Of a stretch of DNA of 64,000 nucleotides, positions 28,003 through 64,000 are shown piece after piece. A program made the position numbers and the translations under genes. This DNA is from a virus. Numbering within the stretch: position 1 is the first letter of the stretch; every line of letters begins with the position of its first letter. The notes below the pieces were generated by a model. The model saw only the letters and a list, made by a program, of their open reading frames with translations. It had not been told where the DNA came from and did not search any database. The stretch is from positions 1 through 64,000 of the IMG/VR virus record IMGVR_UViG_3300028008_001363, one strand, 5' to 3'.

Positions 28003-28542
28003 ATGTCAGGAACAAAAAGATTATATAATTTAGATGAAAAGAACTATTTCAAGTTCTTTGGTATTGAAGAAAAGCAAGGAACTAGTATCCGAAGCCTTTC
28101 TACGCACTACAAAAAGATTCTAAACTTATTAAAAGACGATAATTCATTTATCGGGAGAGACCACAAAGAGTTCGCACACCGAGCCTTTAATACATTGGTC
28201 GACCCAATCTTACGTGCAAGATACATTTTAGAAACCAATGGTCACGAATGGGATTTTAGAGACGGTACAACACCAGAAGACTTGAGTTTTATTTCTGATT
28301 TGAGAGTTCAACTTACTAGAGCAAACTTACAATATGAACTTGAGAATTTCATTTTTGAACTGAAAGGACATACTAACTTTATCATAGAACAGATTGAAGA
28401 AAGTATTGATGTTTACAGTAATTATAAAACAGCCATTGGGCTGATTAATCGATTTTACGAGATATCTCATCTACATGAAGAGGCATCAGGTAAAAAATAC
28501 GAAGTAGAACAAGGAATACACCACGGTGTGTTCGACCACTAG
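28003..28542 (+). CDS. HscB-like protein lacking HPD
   Basis: 179 aa, the HscB size. NYFKFFGI corresponds to the start of the HscB J-domain and FNTLVDPILRARYILETNG is very close to its conserved A-x-x-TL-x-x-P-x-x-RA-x-YLL-x-x-G block. The helical C-terminal domain (VQLTRANLQYELENF...) is as expected. The HPD motif that activates HscA/DnaK is replaced by LLKDDN, so it may keep the scaffold-binding domain but not stimulate Hsp70. HscB normally brings IscU to HscA for Fe-S transfer. The next gene is an A-type Fe-S carrier, which strengthens the call. Confidence 0.7.
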   Translation: MSGTKRLYNLDEKNYFKFFGIEEKQGTSIRSLSTHYKKILNLLKDDNSFIGRDHKEFAHRAFNTLVDPILRARYILETNGHEWDFRDGTTPEDLSFISDLRVQLTRANLQYELENFIFELKGHTNFIIEQIEESIDVYSNYKTAIGLINRFYEISHLHEEASGKKYEVEQGIHHGVFDH

Positions 28543-28554
28543 AGAGGAAGTAAA

Positions 28555-28875
28555 ATGATTTTTACAGAGAATGCGGCTGAACGTGTTAAGGAAATTATTG
28601 CAGAAGACCAAGAAGAAGTACAAGCACTTAGAGTATTTGTACAAGGTGGTGGATGCCACGGTTTTAGTTATGGATTTGGTTTTGAAAATGATATCGCAGA
28701 TGATGATACTGTTATTGAAACCAGTGAAGTGAAATTAGTAGTTGATAGCATGAGCATCATGTATCTTTCAGAAGCAACTATTGATTTTGTTAGAAGCCTA
28801 GAAGGCGAACGTTTTACAATCGACAACCCATCAGCAAGAACATCTTGTGGGTGTGGTTCAAGTTTTTCAGCATAG
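28555..28875 (+). CDS. A-type iron-sulfur carrier (IscA/ErpA-like)
   Basis: 106 aa. The three ligand cysteines are in place: C34 in GGGCHGFSYGF and C98/C100 in TSCGCGSSF, matching IscA and ErpA spacing. The family receives Fe-S clusters or iron and passes them to apo-proteins. An AGAGAGGAAG ribosome binding site follows the HscB-like gene. Likely clients encoded here are the radical SAM protein at 39.6 kb or host enzymes. Confidence 0.9.
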   Translation: MIFTENAAERVKEIIAEDQEEVQALRVFVQGGGCHGFSYGFGFENDIADDDTVIETSEVKLVVDSMSIMYLSEATIDFVRSLEGERFTIDNPSARTSCGCGSSFSA

Positions 28876-28882
28876 GAGTAAC

Positions 28883-29119
28883 ATGTCAATTGAACAAGAA
28901 ATAATGGAAGTCGTAGCGAAGCGATTAAAGTGGAATGAAAACGACTTGTCATTAGAATCAAATCTGAAAGAAGATTTAAAAGCAGATAGCATCGATTCAG
29001 TAGAGGTGCTATTTGAAATCGAAGAAATGTACGACATTGTAATAGAAGACGAACTGGCAGAAGACATTAATACTGTTGGTGACATCGTAAATGTTGTAAA
29101 TTCACTACAAAATACATAA
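28883..29119 (+). CDS. acpP: Acyl carrier protein
   Basis: 78 aa from the ATG at 28883, which has AGGAG upstream. Four-helix ACP with the phosphopantetheine serine S36 in ADSIDSVEV, at the same position as in E. coli AcpP, and an acidic recognition helix II (VLFEIEEMYDI). It carries acyl chains for fatty acid or polyketide synthesis after host phosphopantetheinylation. It closes an Fe-S operon. A ketosynthase and acyl-activating enzyme are encoded at 57-62 kb. Confidence 0.93.
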   Translation: MSIEQEIMEVVAKRLKWNENDLSLESNLKEDLKADSIDSVEVLFEIEEMYDIVIEDELAEDINTVGDIVNVVNSLQNT

Positions 29120-52552: not shown

Positions 52553-52733
52553 AAGTTTAAAAGATTTTCTAGCAACAATCAAACGTATAAATCTAAGAGG
52601 CGATAACAAGATAGTATTGCCAATGAAAGATGCAATAGATATTCAAAATGATATTGCTTTACTATTACTAGAACTAAAAGATAAAGACTCAGGAACAACT
52701 AAAGTTTTTGATGGTGGAACCTTTGATAAATGA
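52542..52733 (+). CDS. Hypothetical protein, 63 aa
   Basis: ATG at 52542 overlaps the previous frame; the stop overlaps the next ATG (ATGA). Helical with basic N-terminal part. Function unknown. Confidence 0.55.
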   Translation: MDYKSLKDFLATIKRINLRGDNKIVLPMKDAIDIQNDIALLLLELKDKDSGTTKVFDGGTFDK

Positions 52734-53458
52734 TTGGTATATTTGGTGATAGTTTTAGTGATGAAATTGATACTAGTATAGGTGGATATCTAGGAGGCTG
52801 GCCATCTGCTTTAGGTAAGTTGTATGATGAAGAAATAGAGAATTTTAGTGAATCATCTACATCTATTTCATATAGTTATCAAAAATTCTGTGAGCAAGAT
52901 TTAAGTAAATATTCAAAGGTTGTCTTTGTTGTTACCTATCCAACTAGACAACTTCTTATTAATAACGCAGAACACAAATCAATACAGTTTCAAGGTGATG
53001 TAACTCGGTCGATTCAACATAACAAAGACTTTAATATAGACTTAACCTTATCAGACAAACGTGTATTAGAATACCAAGAAAACATAACTGCATTTTATCC
53101 TGACACATGGAACTTCGTTAAAAGAGCAGTAAAAGGTGATGTTTTACACTCGCATAAGAATGCTCTAGTATTGGACGTAGAATTACTAGGTACTATAACT
53201 ACTTTAGGATTAAATACTCCTATGGCTCCTTGGTTTACAACACCAAAAGGTGAAGAATGGCATACTAAATATATAGAGACTGCCGAACTAGGAAGAGTGT
53301 GTCATTTTAGTACGCAACAAAATATAGAGTTAGCAGTTCTTATTAAAGATTACTTTGATAATGGGATTGATATACATAATGAGATTAAATGGCACACAGA
53401 TAAATATTTTACTATACCAGAATCAATGGAAGATGCTGGTCTTAAATTGAGAAGGTAG
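52730..53458 (+). CDS. SGNH/GDSL hydrolase-like protein, copy 1
   Basis: 242 aa. MIGIFGDSFSDE is block I (GDS) of SGNH hydrolases. FVVTYPTRQL resembles the block III strand, and GRVCHFSTQQN supplies the C-terminal His, though the DxxH aspartate is not conserved. Such enzymes are esterases or deacetylases of lipids and glycans. It is paralogous to the next gene: same start MIGIFGDSF and same C-terminal KDYFDNG(I/F)DIHN. Confidence 0.6.
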   Translation: MIGIFGDSFSDEIDTSIGGYLGGWPSALGKLYDEEIENFSESSTSISYSYQKFCEQDLSKYSKVVFVVTYPTRQLLINNAEHKSIQFQGDVTRSIQHNKDFNIDLTLSDKRVLEYQENITAFYPDTWNFVKRAVKGDVLHSHKNALVLDVELLGTITTLGLNTPMAPWFTTPKGEEWHTKYIETAELGRVCHFSTQQNIELAVLIKDYFDNGIDIHNEIKWHTDKYFTIPESMEDAGLKLRR

Positions 53459-54080
53459 TCAAATGATTGGAATATTTGGTGATAGTTTTGCATATGAAGG
53501 TCATGGCTCACATGTAAATGTAGGATGGCCCACATATCTTTCTGATTTATATAACGAAGAAAATCAGAACTTTTCAATCTCAGGTTCATCAATTCCTTAC
53601 AGTTATCAATTACTTTGTGAGAAAGACTTAAGTATATACTCAAAAGTTATATTCATTGCTACAGAACCACGTAGACTCCACTTTGTAGATAAAAAAACTA
53701 ATAAAGAAATGTTATGGAATGGTCGTGATGTACCTGGTTCAATAATATGTAATTCAGTCGATACTTATTCTTCATATGACACATCTTACGATGGAGTAGC
53801 CCTAAGATACCAAGAATACATAACGGCAATGTATCCTGATAGTTGGAAGTGGATGGCTAAAGCAATGAGAAATGATGTTGTTCGTAAACACGAAAATTTA
53901 TTATTATTAGATATATTCGAACTATCATTTATAAGTAACTTGGGCGCACCAGATAGGCCATGGCATATTGATTGGACAGAAGACAATAATATTAGAAGTT
54001 GTCATATGACAAAATTACAGAATAGAGAACTTGCAGGATATATTAAAGATTACTTTGATAATGGATTTGATATACATAAT
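53341..54080 (+). repeat. Direct repeat pair within the SGNH paralogues
   Basis: Bases 53341-53380 and 54041-54080 are identical at 38 of 40 positions and lie exactly 700 bp apart, both beginning TATTAAAGATTACTTTGATA. The rest of the two genes is much more diverged, so this points to conversion or strong constraint. Confidence 0.7.
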
Positions 54081-54155
54081 ACATTAAAGTCTGATACTGT
54101 AAAAGAATACTATACTGAACCTTTGCACCATGAATCGGGATTTGTAAAAAAATGA
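53463..54155 (+). CDS. SGNH/GDSL hydrolase-like protein, copy 2
   Basis: 230 aa, tandem paralogue of the preceding gene. Block I MIGIFGDSFAYEG, a second block with FIATEPRRLHF, and a C-terminal SCHMTKLQN His block. Both copies share the SIPYSYQ/SISYSYQ segment. Tandem retention suggests different substrates or a heterodimer. The stop overlaps the following ATG (ATGA). Confidence 0.6.
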   Translation: MIGIFGDSFAYEGHGSHVNVGWPTYLSDLYNEENQNFSISGSSIPYSYQLLCEKDLSIYSKVIFIATEPRRLHFVDKKTNKEMLWNGRDVPGSIICNSVDTYSSYDTSYDGVALRYQEYITAMYPDSWKWMAKAMRNDVVRKHENLLLLDIFELSFISNLGAPDRPWHIDWTEDNNIRSCHMTKLQNRELAGYIKDYFDNGFDIHNTLKSDTVKEYYTEPLHHESGFVKK

Positions 54156-55973: not shown

Positions 55974-57098
55974 ATGAAAGTATCAACAAACGATTTAGAT
56001 GTGAGAGTAGTTCGTCCTAGTGATGTACGTGCCGAGATTAATTACGCTATGAACCGAAAGCGTCCGGTATTCATATGGGGACCTCCTGGTGTTGGTAAAT
56101 CAGAAATTGTAGATAGCATTACCCAAGAACGTTCTGGGTTTATGATTGACCTTCGTCTCGCTCTTATGGAGCCCACAGATTTACGAGGTATTCCATACTT
56201 CAATGAGAAGAATGGTACTATGGAATGGGCCACACCTTCAGATTTGCCTAGCCAAGAACTTGCTGACCAATATGAAAGTGTTGTTCTTTTCTTAGATGAA
56301 ATGAACCAAGCACCACAATCAGTTCAAGCCGCGGCTTATCAGTTAATTCTAAACCGTCGTTTAGGTTCTTATGTGCTACCAGATAACGTGTTAATCGTTG
56401 CGGCTGGTAACCGTGAAAGTGACCGAGGTGTTGCATATCGTATGCCTTCACCACTTGCTAACCGTTTTGTTCACCTTGAAATGGGTGTTGACTTCGAAGA
56501 TTGGCAGACTTGGGCATTAGAGAACAAAATCAGTGCCGATGTGGTTGGTTTCTTAACGTCTAACAAGATGGACTTATTCAACTTTGACCCACGTCAGGCG
56601 AGCCGTGCCTTTGCTACTCCTCGTTCTTGGACTTTTGTTTCTGAAATGTTACCACAAGAAGGTGAAGAAATTTCACAAAGTCGTTTACATGACTTGATTG
56701 CTGGTACAGTTGGTGATGGTGTTGCTACTAAGTTTATGGCTCACAGAGCCTTGTCAAGTAAGTTGCCTGTTCCTTCTGATATCTTAGATGGTACAGTTAC
56801 AACTCTTTCATCAGAAGCACGTGAGATTTCAGCGATGTTCTCGTTGACAACTTCACTATGTTACGAGTTGAAAGACTTTGTAGACCGTAACGGTAAAGAC
56901 AAAATGGATGAGTTATATAGCATGGCTAATAACTTCTTTAAGTTTATGATGGAAAACTTTGATACTGAAATGACAGTATTAGGTGGTCGTACTGCTCTTA
57001 AAGTTTACAAACTTCCATTAGAGCCTCGTAAAGTGCCTTGTATTGAAGATTTCTTCAAAAAGCATGGTAAACTTATCATCGAGGCCCATAACGCCTAA
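55974..57098 (+). CDS. MoxR-type AAA+ ATPase
   Basis: 374 aa. Walker A WGPPGVGKSE near residue 36, ALMEPTDLRGIP and Walker B VLFLDEMNQAP, then NRESDRGVAYRMPSPLANRF with sensor 1 and Arg finger. This is the MoxR/CbbQ/NorQ group, which act with VWA-domain partners as chaperones or metal-inserting remodellers. A likely partner begins at 63769 under the same promoter subclass. Followed by a structured RNA/terminator. Confidence 0.9.
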   Translation: MKVSTNDLDVRVVRPSDVRAEINYAMNRKRPVFIWGPPGVGKSEIVDSITQERSGFMIDLRLALMEPTDLRGIPYFNEKNGTMEWATPSDLPSQELADQYESVVLFLDEMNQAPQSVQAAAYQLILNRRLGSYVLPDNVLIVAAGNRESDRGVAYRMPSPLANRFVHLEMGVDFEDWQTWALENKISADVVGFLTSNKMDLFNFDPRQASRAFATPRSWTFVSEMLPQEGEEISQSRLHDLIAGTVGDGVATKFMAHRALSSKLPVPSDILDGTVTTLSSEAREISAMFSLTTSLCYELKDFVDRNGKDKMDELYSMANNFFKFMMENFDTEMTVLGGRTALKVYKLPLEPRKVPCIEDFFKKHGKLIIEAHNA

Positions 57099-57208: not shown

Positions 57209-57237
57209 TTGACTTTCCTTGATTTTTATGGTATACT
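57209..57237 (+). promoter_or_regulatory. Sigma70-like promoter of the acyl-ligase/halogenase/KAS operon
   Basis: TTGACT (57209-57214), 17-bp spacer, TATACT (57232-57237). The -10 ends six bases before the ATG at 57244, implying a leaderless mRNA. Confidence 0.8.
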
Positions 57238-57243
57238 GGTGTA

Positions 57244-58629
57244 ATGATATTTGAAACTATAAAAAACCAATCACAATTACATCGGCATAAAACCGCAGTA
57301 ATTTGTGGTGACAAAAAATATACCTACACTGAACTTATTGAGAGTGTAGAAAAACTGGCTGCCGTTATGTCTACTGCATTTCTTCCAGGTGACAGATTAT
57401 TATTTGCTAGTGGTAAAGAATATCATTATATTAGAATGGTATTAGCATGTGACATTCTCGGTGTAACATTCATGCCTACATTTCCAAATCTGCCAAAAGA
57501 TGTAGTAGATGGAATAGTAGAAGCAAGTTCACCAGACCATATTATACTAACTGAGGCTGATGCTTTAGCCTTAGAACCACATAACAAAGCACTGATATAT
57601 TCTAAGAAAACCGACCATACATACACAGTATTATTCACAAGTGGTACAACCGGTAAACCTAAAGCAGTTGCACATACGAGTGCAGGATGTTTGATGGCAT
57701 GTTTCAATAGTATTAGTGTGTATCAAATGAGTTCAAATGATGTAATACTATCTCAATTACCACCATCAACCGTAGGAGGTTTGTATCTATACGCACTTCC
57801 AGGACTAATTAAAGGTTGTACAGTTGTAATCGAACAGTTCAATCCTAGACGATTTGTAAAGTTATGTGAAGAATATAAACCAACAATAGGCATAATTGTT
57901 CCAGCAATGATACTTGCTATGCAGAATTTAAAGACATGGAATGAATTAGATATGTCTCATTGGAGAGAACTAAGTGTTGGTAGTACAATTATACCAGAAG
58001 AAATGTTAGACATTCTATTCAGTAAAGGTGTCCCTGCCATCAGAGATTTATATGGGTGTACGGAAACTCAAGTTCCAGCATTCACATTCTTAATTGAACC
58101 AGATACTGAACACAAATTACAACTTGAATGCAATGACCAATATGAATACAAATTAGATAGACATGACCAGTTATGGTTAAAAAGTCCTCTACTAATGAGC
58201 AACTATCTGAATGCAGATGCAGAACTAGACAGTGATGGTTTTTGGTGTACAGGTGATGTATTTGAACGCAAGTATAATAAACTATTTTACAAGTCTCGCA
58301 GAAAAGATTTAATGAAAATCAACAGTCATAATGTATCACCAATTGGTATAGAAAATGCTATATTAGTATTAGACGGTGTTGATGAAGTATGTGTAATATC
58401 TAAAGAACGAGGTTTAGGTGAAAAATATATCGTAGCAATTATAAGTAGTCAGGACCCACAGATAAATAAATCGTTAGTGATGAATTCTATAGAAAGCAAA
58501 CTCATGCCATATGAACTTCCTAAAGATATAATCGTTACTAAAGAAACTCTGCCTAGAAATCAGATGGGCAAAATACAGAGACATGTTATACAAGGCATCT
58601 ACGGAGAAGTCAATGAAGACCAAAGTTAA
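57244..58629 (+). CDS. Acyl-CoA synthetase / acyl-AMP ligase (ANL superfamily)
   Basis: 461 aa. ATP-binding P-loop TSGTTGKPK at residues 132-140, core DLYGCTETQ, hinge GDVFERKYNKLFYKSRRKDLMK, and NQMGKIQRHV with the C-terminal catalytic Lys. Activates a carboxylic acid as acyl-AMP and transfers it to CoA or to a carrier protein. Substrate unknown. No ribosome binding site: the ATG lies at the expected transcription start. First gene of an operon with a halogenase and ketosynthase, so it may load the phage ACP (28.9 kb). Confidence 0.9.
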   Translation: MIFETIKNQSQLHRHKTAVICGDKKYTYTELIESVEKLAAVMSTAFLPGDRLLFASGKEYHYIRMVLACDILGVTFMPTFPNLPKDVVDGIVEASSPDHIILTEADALALEPHNKALIYSKKTDHTYTVLFTSGTTGKPKAVAHTSAGCLMACFNSISVYQMSSNDVILSQLPPSTVGGLYLYALPGLIKGCTVVIEQFNPRRFVKLCEEYKPTIGIIVPAMILAMQNLKTWNELDMSHWRELSVGSTIIPEEMLDILFSKGVPAIRDLYGCTETQVPAFTFLIEPDTEHKLQLECNDQYEYKLDRHDQLWLKSPLLMSNYLNADAELDSDGFWCTGDVFERKYNKLFYKSRRKDLMKINSHNVSPIGIENAILVLDGVDEVCVISKERGLGEKYIVAIISSQDPQINKSLVMNSIESKLMPYELPKDIIVTKETLPRNQMGKIQRHVIQGIYGEVNEDQS

Positions 58630-60301
58630 AAAGATAGTTGTTGTCGGCGGTGGTGTAGGCGGTTGGCTATCTGCATCTTGGCTAAAAACAAAACATCCAG
58701 AACTAGACATAACCCTTATTGAAAGTGATAAAGTAGGAACTATTGGTATTGGTGAAAGTGTCTTACCTCGCCTAGGAACTATGTTAAGTGATATAGGGCT
58801 AGAAGAACGAGAGTGGATGTCTTATACACATTCAATATACAAACTTGGTAATAAATTTATTGGCTGGAATATTCCAGGTAAAAGAGACCATGTTACTAAT
58901 CACTGGTGGCCTTCTAAGTTTGATGAATCATATTATGGATTTTCTTATGCCTTACCAGAAGAACACTTAGCATCAAGTTATTATAATCAATTAAAGACTA
59001 CCGATTTGTTTTACAACTCTAAAGGTAAAGAAGGTGTTAATGATAAATGGAATGATTATTGGCTTCAATTAGCACGTGATGGTAGAAAAAACTTATGGGA
59101 GATTGCACAAGATACACAAGAGGCAACTTACTTGATGGACTACTGTAAGTCTCCTTATGACATGAATGACAATCTGATGTTAGGTTCATGGGAAAGTCTA
59201 ACATATCATATCGATGCAAATAGATTTCCGAAACTAATTAAAGATAGAGTTGCGATACCAAAGGGTGTTAAGCACATACATGGACACATATCTGAGATTA
59301 AAAAAGATGCCGACGGATACATATCATCTGTCGTAACAGACGCAGGCGAAGAATATAGTGGTGATTTATTTTTAGATTGCACAGGCTTTCATAGAGTTCT
59401 TACAAAAGAAATGGATGTCGAATGGAAACCTTATAATGAAATTACTACGGACAATTTAATCTTTGCACCAATAAAATACAATGACCCAGTAAAAGAAATG
59501 CGTCCATATACTATGAGCAATGCAATGGATGAAGGTTGGTTGTTTATCATTTCATTATATAATAGAATGGGTTCAGGTTATATATTTGATGCTAGTGAGA
59601 TATCTCCAGAAGATGCAATGAAGAAGTATAAAAAGTATTGGGAAGGTCACGAGTTTATAAGAGAACCTAGACATATAAAATGGGATGCTGGTAAATACGA
59701 TACGCAATGGAATAACAATGTAGTATCAATCGGAATGACTGGTGGAATGATTGAACCTATGGAAGCAAACGTGTTAGCACTAGCACAGGCTGGTATGAAA
59801 ATGGTTGAACGAATTATTTCACGTGCAGATGAAAATGATGAAGTGATTGGCAAAGCATCAATCAAGGCATATAATAGTAACCTGAATTGGCTGTTCGATA
59901 ACATAACAAAATTTGTAGACTATCACTATACTTTAAGTGACAGAACTGACACACCTTTCTGGGCTAAAAAACACCAAAGAGGCATTGATGAAAATCATAA
60001 AGAAGAAATATGGAAGCAGTATAGAAATCCTAGATGCACACCAGAATCAGGTGTACCAGATTATATGTGGGCACAAGTAGCCGTTTCTATGGACAAGTTT
60101 GATGATGATGTTGAACTTCATGTTCGTCCAGACTTATTAGAGAAAGCAAACGAATCATTTGAATGGTTAAGAAAATCTAGTAAACGAAATGGAATATATG
60201 CACCAAACGCCTATGAATGGAATAAGAAAATGTTATTCGGTGATAGAACTCATAGTGAAGTACTAGAAGAAAGTTTAAAACCACAAGATGAAGATAGTTA
60301 A
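58613..60301 (+). CDS. Flavin-dependent (tryptophan-type) halogenase-like protein
   Basis: 562 aa. ATG at 58613 with GGAG upstream, preferred over 58583. FAD-binding GGGVGG (residues 12-17), GIGESVLP and candidate catalytic Lys K81 in LGNKFIGW, where PrnA has its K79. GGMIEPMEAN is the FAD/chloride loop and FVDYHYTLSDRTDTPFW is conserved. The WxWxIP fingerprint reads WLFIIS (309-314), so chemistry may differ. Related enzymes are known from marine cyanophages (VirX1 iodinates small molecules). Overlaps the ligase by 17 nt. Confidence 0.85.
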   Translation: MKTKVKKIVVVGGGVGGWLSASWLKTKHPELDITLIESDKVGTIGIGESVLPRLGTMLSDIGLEEREWMSYTHSIYKLGNKFIGWNIPGKRDHVTNHWWPSKFDESYYGFSYALPEEHLASSYYNQLKTTDLFYNSKGKEGVNDKWNDYWLQLARDGRKNLWEIAQDTQEATYLMDYCKSPYDMNDNLMLGSWESLTYHIDANRFPKLIKDRVAIPKGVKHIHGHISEIKKDADGYISSVVTDAGEEYSGDLFLDCTGFHRVLTKEMDVEWKPYNEITTDNLIFAPIKYNDPVKEMRPYTMSNAMDEGWLFIISLYNRMGSGYIFDASEISPEDAMKKYKKYWEGHEFIREPRHIKWDAGKYDTQWNNNVVSIGMTGGMIEPMEANVLALAQAGMKMVERIISRADENDEVIGKASIKAYNSNLNWLFDNITKFVDYHYTLSDRTDTPFWAKKHQRGIDENHKEEIWKQYRNPRCTPESGVPDYMWAQVAVSMDKFDDDVELHVRPDLLEKANESFEWLRKSSKRNGIYAPNAYEWNKKMLFGDRTHSEVLEESLKPQDEDS

Positions 60302-60899
60302 AACATTTATAGGTAAGAATAGTTTTGAATTTAATCTTGTAGAATATGACCCAAGTCTACAGAGTGATTTAGAAGATTTCTGTAAGCGATGTGACCGAGA
60401 AGGTTACACCAATAACGCAAGTTTTAAAGCATTGAAACTTGGCAAATGGGGTAACTTAGAAAAGTGGTGGCTTGTTTATCATAAAGATAAGATTATCAGC
60501 ATGAGTGGTGCCCATTATTTTCCACACTTACATTCTAACTGTTTTATTATATTAAGTAGAATGGCTACAATGAAGGCATATAATGGAATGGCATCGCCTT
60601 CTGTGTCGGCTAGAAAGATGCAACACAACTTTGCATTTGGAGTTTTTATGCCAGTTCAAATAGATTGGTGTTTAGAAATGGGTGCTACAGATATTATAGG
60701 AACTACCAACTCACCAAAAAACGACACAGATAGAAGTGGCACAATGTTTAAAGTCCACGAATATGCTGACAAGTTTTTTAAGATAGGTGACAAAGCAACT
60801 AGAATACATAAAGACTTTCCAAGTTACAATACACTACAAGATATTTGGAGATTTAATGTAAGAGACTTTGCGACAATGGAAAAGATAAAATACAAATGA
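60288..60899 (+). CDS. Hypothetical protein, possible GNAT-like acyltransferase
   Basis: 203 aa overlapping its neighbours by 14 and 4 bases. WWLVYHKDKIISMSGAHYFP, then a strand-helix with RMATMKAYNG, resembles the central strands of GNAT folds, but the acetyl-CoA loop (Q/RxxGxG/A) is not evident. Lying between halogenase and ketosynthase in a coupled operon, it is likely part of the same pathway. Function unproven. Confidence 0.5.
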   Translation: MKIVKTFIGKNSFEFNLVEYDPSLQSDLEDFCKRCDREGYTNNASFKALKLGKWGNLEKWWLVYHKDKIISMSGAHYFPHLHSNCFIILSRMATMKAYNGMASPSVSARKMQHNFAFGVFMPVQIDWCLEMGATDIIGTTNSPKNDTDRSGTMFKVHEYADKFFKIGDKATRIHKDFPSYNTLQDIWRFNVRDFATMEKIKYK

Positions 60900-62047
60900 C
60901 AGTATATATTAACGCAATTAGTGGTCTAACTCCTTTTGGTGACCTAGAAGACACATGGAAGGCAATAACAAATGATGAAGTTTGTTACGGTCCTCTTACT
61001 AAATTTTCACATGATAAGAGCATCAGGTCTAAGGTTTCAGGTGAGGTTAAGTTTAATGCTGAAAACCATCCTATCATAACTGAAAGAGAACAAGATAAAA
61101 TGCCATCGTATATGCAATGGGCATTATCATCAGCAGATAAATTATTACACAAACAAGATTTAGAAAAAGACAGAACTGGTGTTCTTGTATCAACTGCCCT
61201 TAGTATGTATAACGAACCTCTACGAGCAAGTGAAAATAAGAATGTCAACACTTATACATTCACCCCAAATCTTATATCAAACAATATCAATATTAAATAT
61301 GGTTTTACAGGACCAAGTACAATGTTGTCTAGTGCGTGTTCTACAGGACTGTACAGTATCATTATGGGTTGTATGATGATTGAAACAGGACAAGCCGATA
61401 ACATAATTGCTGGTGCATTTGATGATTCGATTTATAAGGATGCATATAAACAGTTCGGTAAACTAAGAGCATTGTCAACAAAGTACAATGAAACTCCTGA
61501 AATAGCAAGTCGTCCATGGGATAAAGATAGAGACGGACTAGTTCTCAGTGAGGGTGGTGCATTATTTTTATTATCAAAAACTAAGACAAAAGATACAATA
61601 GCAGAGATATCTGGATATGCAATGAATAACGATGCATTCCAGGCTGTTGCTCCGCATCCAGATGGGACTATGATAGAAAAATGTATGAAAGATGCACTGT
61701 TTTATCGCACACCAGACTTAATCAATGCACATGCAACATCTACCCCTAAGGGCGATTATATTGAGGTGGATGCAATCAATAGATTAGGACTAGAAGATGT
61801 ATGGGTAACAGCAAATAAGTCGCAAATTGGTCACTTAATGGGGGCTGCCGGTGCCATAGAGACTGCTTTAAGCGTACTTTCACTAGAAAATGACATTATT
61901 ACTCCATCTTTAAACATAAATGAACTAGAAGATGGTTATAATATAAAATATACACCAACTACCATATCACATAAAGTTAATTCAGTACTGTGTAATAGTT
62001 TTGGATTTGGTGGGACAAATGCATGTATTTTGTTATCAAAAACTTGA
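60896..62047 (+). CDS. Beta-ketoacyl-ACP synthase (FabF/KAS II-like)
   Basis: 383 aa. Complete catalytic set: C148 in SACSTG, H279 in HATST, K308 and H313 in KSQIGHLMGAAG, and NSFGFGGTNA at the C-terminus. These match the C-H-H triad of FabF and polyketide KS domains, which condense an acyl thioester with malonyl-ACP. No acyltransferase or reductase domain is fused. The stop codon lies inside the -35 of the next promoter. With the ligase, halogenase and ACP it suggests a phage-encoded acyl or polyketide product. Confidence 0.93.
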   Translation: MTVYINAISGLTPFGDLEDTWKAITNDEVCYGPLTKFSHDKSIRSKVSGEVKFNAENHPIITEREQDKMPSYMQWALSSADKLLHKQDLEKDRTGVLVSTALSMYNEPLRASENKNVNTYTFTPNLISNNINIKYGFTGPSTMLSSACSTGLYSIIMGCMMIETGQADNIIAGAFDDSIYKDAYKQFGKLRALSTKYNETPEIASRPWDKDRDGLVLSEGGALFLLSKTKTKDTIAEISGYAMNNDAFQAVAPHPDGTMIEKCMKDALFYRTPDLINAHATSTPKGDYIEVDAINRLGLEDVWVTANKSQIGHLMGAAGAIETALSVLSLENDIITPSLNINELEDGYNIKYTPTTISHKVNSVLCNSFGFGGTNACILLSKT

Positions 62048-62071
62048 CAAGATTGCAAAATGTGTTATACT
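62044..62071 (+). promoter_or_regulatory. Sigma70-like promoter
   Basis: TTGACA (62044-62049, containing the KAS stop), 16-bp spacer, TATACT (62066-62071) with TGT extension. Confidence 0.85.
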
Positions 62072-62102: not shown

Positions 62103-62918
62103 ATGATAGACACATCGAACAAACATAGTTACACCCTTGAAAGAGAATCAAAAGTCGTTGTTTACTTTGGTAAATATGACTTCACCAATGGTGCTGAGAT
62201 TATACATAATATAAAATCATCGGACAGTCCGTATTCATTTTCTAAAGATGAACTTCTTACGGCAGCCGTAGTGGCAAATAAATTCAATTCGAAGTATGTT
62301 AAAGCCGGTGGGACTTTTGATATAGTTGAAGGTGAATTTGTGAAGACTGCTTTCAGTAATAAAGACATTCTTGCTTCAATTTTGGTGAGTTATCCACATT
62401 TAATACTTGACGAAGACCGACAAAAAGCATCAGACATAATGAGATACTTAGAAGGTGAGTTTTCTTTTAAGATACTTGCTGATACTTTAACTGAATTTGA
62501 AAGTAGTATTGCTACATTCTTAGGTGCAGACAGTGATTCATTAGCACAGATAATAGGTGTTGCGGCTTATCTTCCTACTTACTATGATAATGCAGTAAAA
62601 AATGATGAACTCCGTGAAAGAAGTTTTCATACTGGACATCTCGGTGAAGTTGGTGAGAAGATAATAACAGAGATTGAAATACTTAGGTCAAAATACTTGG
62701 CAGAGACCGCATTTGGTGGCTCAGGTTACATGGTGAGTGCTATTACTACTGACGACCATAGAGTTAGTTTCTTTACTACTAATGATGATTTAGCAAACAG
62801 TAAAAAGAATGTTAAGGTTTCATGTAAAGTGAAATCACTAGGTACTGCTTGGAAAGAAGACACGATTAACGAAACTAGAGTTAATTACGTTAGAATTTTA
62901 AATGTAGCAGATTTATAG
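62103..62918 (+). CDS. Hypothetical protein, 271 aa
   Basis: GAAGTAGATATT precedes the ATG. Globular protein with strand-rich N- and C-terminal parts (KVVVYFGKYDF and NVKVSCKVKSLGTAW) and a helical middle. The C-terminal third resembles an OB-like beta barrel, which might indicate nucleic-acid binding, but no family is recognised. Single-gene transcription unit between two promoters. Confidence 0.65.
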   Translation: MIDTSNKHSYTLERESKVVVYFGKYDFTNGAEIIHNIKSSDSPYSFSKDELLTAAVVANKFNSKYVKAGGTFDIVEGEFVKTAFSNKDILASILVSYPHLILDEDRQKASDIMRYLEGEFSFKILADTLTEFESSIATFLGADSDSLAQIIGVAAYLPTYYDNAVKNDELRERSFHTGHLGEVGEKIITEIEILRSKYLAETAFGGSGYMVSAITTDDHRVSFFTTNDDLANSKKNVKVSCKVKSLGTAWKEDTINETRVNYVRILNVADL

Positions 62919-63768: not shown

Positions 63769-64000
63769 ATGGGTCAACCACAAAAACAAGTAGCCACAGA
63801 AAGCGAATTAGATAGTGCATTAGATGATGTTCTAGCCGCTAATGGTATTGAAGTAGATGATACTCTACCAGAACCTGTAGTATTTGATTATACTGACGAA
63901 AAAGTCAAAGAAATGATTGTGAGTAGTCGTGTTCGCCTTCTTATTCGTCACCCATTTTTCGGTACACTTGCTACTCGATTGAAATTAGTCGAGGCAGAAT
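63769..64000 (+). CDS. DUF2201/VWA-type metallopeptidase-like protein, N-terminal part
   Basis: Open frame from an ATG at 63769 (AGAGGAATAAGAT upstream) that runs off the window. After an acidic 50-residue lead, SSRVRLLIRHPFFGTLATRL matches the start of the DUF2201 putative metallopeptidase domain, which usually precedes a VWA domain. Such proteins pair with MoxR ATPases; one is at 55974 under a related promoter. The rest of the gene is outside the window, so the VWA half is inferred. Confidence 0.65.
   Translation, partial: MGQPQKQVATESELDSALDDVLAANGIEVDDTLPEPVVFDYTDEKVKEMIVSSRVRLLIRHPFFGTLATRLKLVEAE

Follow-up and report, generated by a model that had tools for sequence, protein, structure and literature searches.

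Does a phage encode an acyl assembly line of its own? This question is raised by four consecutive genes at positions 57,244-62,047 of the window, namely, the whole stretch of DNA analyzed here (bases 1-64,000 of the 99,856-base IMG/VR virus record IMGVR_UViG_3300028008_001363). These genes encode an AMP-forming ligase, a flavin-dependent-halogenase-family flavoprotein, a GNAT-fold acyltransferase and a beta-ketoacyl-ACP synthase (KAS), while a free acyl carrier protein (ACP) is encoded 28 kb upstream (Table 1). On balance, the evidence favors the view that these genes make up a phage cassette for acyl biosynthesis on a carrier protein, which is acquired and lost as a whole and for which a working order can be proposed. 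As the window DNA polymerase is closest to those of the jumbo phages Atu_ph07 and Phosso (48%), the record probably represents part of the genome of an uncultured jumbo phage. The carriers of the cassette form a family of uncultured and apparently very large marine phages.

Table 1. Features of the window considered in this study.
Feature	Position	Strand	Length	Basis of assignment
AMP-forming acyl/aryl ligase, ANL family	57244..58629	+	461 aa	Pfam AMP-binding 3.4e-42, AMP-binding_C 3.3e-6
Flavin-dependent-halogenase-family flavoprotein	58613..60301	+	562 aa	Pfam PF04820 (Trp_halogenase) 4.3e-83; PDB relatives PyrH, VirX1
GNAT-fold acyltransferase (third gene, "unknown" in the earlier note)	60288..60899	+	203 aa	AlphaFold2 model and Foldseek against PDB
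Beta-ketoacyl-ACP synthase, FabF/KAS II-like	60896..62047	+	383 aa	Pfam ketoacyl-synt N 1.1e-32, C 1.3e-23
Free acyl carrier protein, Ser36 in DSID	28883..29119	+		Pfam PP-binding 4.4e-10
Extended -10 sigma70-type promoter, TTGACT-17-TATACT, TG before -10	57209..57237	+		Recurs at equivalent site in relatives
MoxR-type AAA ATPase, left core-gene border, outside the pathway	55974..57098	+		phrog_1297 6.6e-96; constant in relatives
VWA/metallopeptidase-like gene start, right core-gene border, runs past the window	63784..64000	+		tblastn 71-72% to VWA of relatives

Gene content and active sites of the cassette

All four open reading frames (ORFs) described in an earlier note on this DNA were found in place, with consecutive overlaps of 17 nt (ligase and flavoprotein), 14 nt (flavoprotein and third gene) and 4 nt (third gene and KAS). 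In the case of the flavoprotein, the ORF-list start at 58583 lies upstream of a conserved MK start at 58613. The overlaps and the placement of the genes behind one promoter agree with the earlier proposal of a single co-transcribed set. The promoter itself is present, and almost every relative has such an element immediately ahead of the ligase, with a gap of only a few nucleotides to the start codon in most cassette members; by count, however, promoter matches in the region (33) are not above chance (28.5 +/- 4.8 in shuffles). Because the -10 element stops 6 nt short of the ligase ATG, the operon mRNA is probably leaderless. A second strong extended -10 promoter-like site, at 62044-62071, overlaps the KAS stop codon and precedes a gene at 62103.

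Examination of the ligase revealed motifs A3 (TSGTTGKPK), A5, A7 (TGD), A8 and the A10 lysine, as well as the C-terminal domain, to be intact. The A10 lysine, the catalytic residue that had been noted as kept, is retained in every full cassette aligned. The KAS, which matches NCBIfam fabF at 2e-80, under the curated cut-off, retains Cys148, His279, Lys308, His313 and an NSFGFGG motif, such that the C-H-H triad (Cys148, His279 and His313) is indeed intact. Among 22 records tested, the KAS was present only in those with a full cassette. The flavoprotein was considered in terms of the GxGxxG motif, the catalytic lysine (K79 in PrnA) and a glutamate (E346) of halogenases; the corresponding GxGxxG (G12/G14/G17), Lys77 and Glu384 are invariant across the alignment of its clade.

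Pfam matches exceed the cut-off by far for three of the four proteins; the third protein, with no Pfam match of its own, could be assigned a fold. Its AlphaFold2 model, based on 19 relatives, reached a pLDDT of 90.9 and a pTM of 0.89, and all matches listed by Foldseek against the PDB were GNAT-type acetyltransferases (best E-value 1.9e-7, TM about 0.5). Weak GNAT matches in Pfam were obtained for only 3 of 12 relatives of the protein. A GNAT is a plausible enzyme for release of the acyl group onto an amine.

The island, its gain and loss, and the remote carrier protein

To survey the slot occupied by the cassette, the AAA gene upstream of it served as the anchor for retrieving 71 IMG/VR loci, which were then scored. 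A full slot, with the order ligase, halogenase, GNAT and KAS between the AAA and VWA genes, was seen in 28 contigs (a few of them cut at an end) and in one further contig. Synteny in related phages, on which the earlier note had made its reading depend, was thus found in 29 further contigs, in which the identity of the cassette genes to those of the window ranges from 38 to 98% across lineages. Another 17 relatives have an empty slot, in which AAA and VWA lie side by side or almost so, and in the cultured phage Phosso, AAA is followed directly by VWA. At seven loci, the slot is decayed or replaced: the ligase is truncated and lacks the C-domain, the KAS was not found and the halogenase was either not found or is fragmented, with most of these loci holding a diverged GNAT or another gene. 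On the AAA tree, the "full" label has to change a minimum of seven times. The cassette is a conserved island that is acquired and lost as a whole.

Values of dN/dS are mostly 0.06-0.19 for the ligase, flavoprotein, GNAT and KAS, as compared to 0.02-0.11 for AAA, pointing to purifying selection. These values, together with the intact active sites, rule out decay into pseudogenes in the window, true decay being seen only in the seven relatives mentioned above, while chance or contamination is ruled out by the position of the cassette between phage core genes in 29 other contigs. At L036, L038, L044, L045, L046 and L085 (and at L051), a truncated ligase N-domain with an altered ATP motif retains an open reading frame, while the remainder of the cassette is missing; this truncated domain shows a dN/dS of 0.11-0.17 in the pairs tested and is perhaps a re-purposed pseudoenzyme.

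The gene encoding the ACP lies behind HscB- and IscA-like genes and is preceded by a GGAG Shine-Dalgarno sequence. As the earlier note had stated, its Ser36 is intact, and the co-occurrence of this ACP with the four-gene set could be considered directly. Matches to PF00550 were obtained in 13 of 51 records, and all 13 carry the full cassette; none was found in cassette-less records, some of which span 200-340 kb. At the level of the locus, the ACP is present in all nine full-cassette records that span it and in none of the four cassette-less records that retain HscB/IscA and the next gene (Fisher p = 0.0014, relatedness ignored). On the tree, this corresponds to only four independent pairs, all concordant (sign test p = 0.125). 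The four cassette-less records, two with an empty slot (G029 and G054) and two with a decayed one (G048 and G019), are without only the ACP at this locus, and in DNA alignments of G048 and G019 the ACP gene is cleanly missing. It is thus supported that the remote ACP belongs with the cassette.

A holo-ACP synthase (AcpS; PF01648) is encoded in two full-cassette records, G034 (342 kb) and G008 (127 kb), and was absent from the cassette-less G054 (342 kb), G022 (246 kb) and G047 (203 kb). The AcpS scan also returned contigs with matching local gene order from the metagenomes of two other cassette phages. A second kind of phage ACP occurs in some cassette-bearing phages, at L102, L110 and L142 (G025 and G034), where it is flanked by a radical SAM-like gene and by a gene for a protein of 335-340 aa that has no Pfam family. 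At L211:8001-9143, on an unrelated 87-kb viral contig, a distant KAS stretch (27%) is followed by an ACP. The iron-sulfur (Fe-S) assembly-like genes before the window ACP, i.e., the HscB- and IscA-like genes, span 28003-28875, and an IscU-like gene lies elsewhere in the genome at L131 (G000:96392-96694).

A degenerate short-chain dehydrogenase/reductase (SDR) at 54152 had also been counted as part of the set, and this membership is rejected. Pfam (PF13561 included), NCBIfam and PHROG all gave no match to the 54152 protein, its model is uninformative (pLDDT 43, with no fold match at E<=0.001), and its gene is missing from most of the cassette-bearing relatives examined. What stands of the earlier assembly-line reading is one syntenic set with a remote ACP, and not its SDR member. 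Nearby, at 52730-54155, two tandem SGNH-like-looking proteins share 44% identity with each other; these have no family match and occur in only some relatives.

A proposed pathway and competing readings

The ACP, AcpS, ligase and KAS together supply the components of a carrier-bound acyl route. In the working order proposed, AcpS, supplied by the phage in two full-cassette records and otherwise by the host, would first convert the phage ACP to its holo form. The ligase would then turn a carboxylic acid into an acyl-AMP and load it onto the ACP, and the KAS, with host malonyl-ACP, would extend it to a beta-ketoacyl-ACP. At this stage, sister lineages would bring in one or two membrane desaturases to act on the chain. 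Next, the flavoprotein would oxidize or halogenate an electron-rich intermediate, whether an aryl ring, an alkene or an enolizable beta-keto carbon. Finally, the GNAT would transfer the acyl group to an amine, yielding an N-acyl amine or amide-type product. The putative product, which may benefit the phage, could be a lipid, a metabolite in free form or a modification on a macromolecule. Membrane fatty-acid desaturases (PF00487) lie inside the more divergent full cassettes, between the halogenase and GNAT genes and/or near the KAS gene, and a fatty-acyl substrate is therefore favored.

Several points weigh against this pathway. The flavoprotein is its weak point, since two motifs are altered clade-wide in the alignment, with WxWxIP appearing as W[LNTA]F[IV]I[SPT] and FxxPxxSxG as [FM]xEPME[AG]N. 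The latter tunnel motif is described as present in all active halogenases, while some active halogenases, such as Bmp5, are also without WxWxIP (PMC8407142). A looser FX[DE]PX[EFL] matches those relatives with F, with the window protein having M at this position. Accordingly, the earlier claim of a halogenase holds for family membership, GxGxxG, Lys77 and Glu384; given the two altered motifs, halogenation is put forward only as a candidate activity, with oxidation as the alternative. The sequence of the ligase reveals neither its substrate nor its carrier, be it ACP or CoA. Ketoreductase PF13561 was found in none of 22 records, one of them of 342 kb (dehydratase and thioesterase were not searched), such that a product in reduced form may depend on enzymes of the host. 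Moreover, the full-cassette record G038 (72 kb) presents no ACP, possibly being a fragment missing the locus, and AcpS was not found in the full-cassette G033 (139 kb), perhaps likewise a fragment without the locus. Lastly, many phages encode a GNAT and a ligase with no KAS detected, and the GNAT hence need not take acyl-ACP.

Some of the same observations could be read as remodeling of host fatty acids or membranes, with the ligase, ACP, KAS and desaturase salvaging, elongating and desaturating host chains, the flavoprotein serving as an acyl hydroxylase or monooxygenase, and the GNAT making an aminolipid. The FabF-like character of the KAS, the desaturases of divergent members, the altered halogenase-specific motifs and the missing polyketide-type reductase (PF13561) are all consistent with such a role. 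Yet, the flavoprotein is a Trp_halogenase family member in which the catalytic lysine and glutamate are preserved, no desaturase was found among the records of the window lineage examined, and pattern scans of 84,980 species genomes, of limited sensitivity in using only two short patterns each, confirmed no relative of the flavoprotein or GNAT, hence no such host-lipid pathway is known. Remodeling is accordingly considered rather unlikely, albeit the foremost of the rivals to the carrier-protein-dependent cassette.

A further reading draws on the distribution of the GNAT. This family is large in marine phages, with 95 stretches encoding a relative. In 43 of the 54 distant loci that were kept (L249-L302, decayed-cassette contigs included), an AMP ligase lies within the fetched flank. 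The common order is GNAT, DUF6356, class IV aminotransferase, further genes and a mini-ligase; a halogenase-like gene is present at one of the 54 loci, and a radical SAM-like gene at one. The ligase-GNAT core could thus make an acyl group to be attached to a macromolecule, such as a base in the phage DNA, a glycan at the surface or a protein, with the KAS and ACP only preparing the acyl. The size of the family, the frequent ligase and the often accompanying DUF6356, class IV aminotransferase and IMPDH-like genes speak for this idea, whereas the conserved cassette is without any recognizable DNA-modification, glycosyltransferase or capsule gene; the idea is considered improbable. Examples of this widespread distant module, in which DUF6356 is a small membrane protein and the AMP ligase is of about 230 aa without the C-terminal domain, lie at L272:7977-10338, L294:8028-16237 and L301:7974-13672.

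That the ACP instead serves Fe-S cluster assembly, unconnected to the cassette, is highly improbable, as despite the HscB-IscA-ACP gene neighborhood and the ACP-Fe-S links known in mitochondria, cassette-less phages keep HscB/IscA and are without only the ACP, and some cassette phages have a further ACP elsewhere, beside a radical SAM gene.

Relation to known systems and to other marine phages

Single metabolic helper genes are a known cargo of phages, and temperate phages occasionally carry biosynthetic clusters. Acid activation, a free ACP, a ketosynthase and tailoring are together familiar from bacteria, namely, from type II fatty acid synthases or minimal polyketide synthases with ligase-ACP loading, JamABC-like ligase-ACP-desaturase starter modules, and the Xan/APE and Bmp/Plt systems. 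The pathway logic is alike, with some of these systems including a halogenase or desaturase, whereas the window cassette is virus-borne and differs in gene set and order. FeeM and LuxI-type N-acyl synthases combine a GNAT-like fold with an acyl-ACP donor, as is proposed for the window GNAT. No sequence relation between these synthases and the window GNAT was detected, however, and the Foldseek matches listed are N-acetyltransferases.

Halogenating pathways include Bmp/Plt (PMC8407142). In phages, VirX1 of cyanophage Syn10 (PDB 6QGM) is a proven flavin-dependent halogenase (PMC8407142), which shares with the window flavoprotein a phage origin, a common superfamily and the conserved catalytic lysine. 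The window flavoprotein is only about 27% identical to the Syn10/syn9 enzyme (tblastn), and where VirX1 presents W.W.IP and EPLES, the window clade presents W.F and EPME[AG]. In cyanophage syn9 and pelagiphage HTVC008M, the genes seen around the halogenase encode a further halogenase, oxygenases and structural proteins, none being annotated as a KAS, ligase or GNAT. The jumbo cyanophage S-SSM6a offers a further likeness, in that a multi-gene cluster with a halogenase is predicted to yield a halogenated secondary metabolite (Iyer et al., 2021; PMC7824862). As far as that cluster is described in the portions of the report consulted, it comprises carbamoyl transferases, a HemK methylase, 2OG-Fe and cupin oxygenases and phosphatases, with no ligase, KAS, ACP, AcpS or desaturase being named (PMC7824862). 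A literature search, in which few subscription journals were covered, returned no described phage pathway joining a ligase, KAS, ACP, AcpS, desaturase and GNAT. This agrees with the earlier note, which knew of no described phage pathway joining its four activities, with the provision that a phage halogenase cluster of other enzymes had been predicted (Iyer et al., 2021).

A comparison of the ligase-halogenase stretch with 50,697 cultured-phage records gave no match at the DNA level, and matches to the KAS, ligase and ACP in phage-labelled records appear to stem from bacterial sequence carried over. As to a bacterial origin of the cassette, the pattern scans mentioned above, at their limited sensitivity, confirmed no relative of the halogenase or GNAT. 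An unrelated phage, represented by four near-identical contigs (L175-L178; L177:6736-10083), has DUF6356, a ligase, a halogenase (29% to that of the window) and a probable GNAT in a row; no ACP was found in these records. Because both the distant loci and this unrelated phage pair a ligase with a GNAT, the two are regarded, from gene content, as a recurrent phage unit, of which the window cassette would be a version elaborated with KAS and ACP.

It is possible, and suggested here tentatively, that apparently jumbo marine phages run their own ligase-ACP-AcpS-KAS-desaturase-flavoprotein-GNAT line, yielding a new class of halogenated or oxidized acyl amide during infection, as an elaborate version of a wider marine-phage ligase-GNAT toolkit. 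The existence of paired genomes with and without the cassette makes the question testable. The cassette also points to that toolkit as being larger and as yet undescribed. If the proposal is true, phages would themselves be producers of acyl-derived molecules, by means of a conserved but variably present viral cassette that brings along a carrier protein and, in some phages, an activating enzyme as well.

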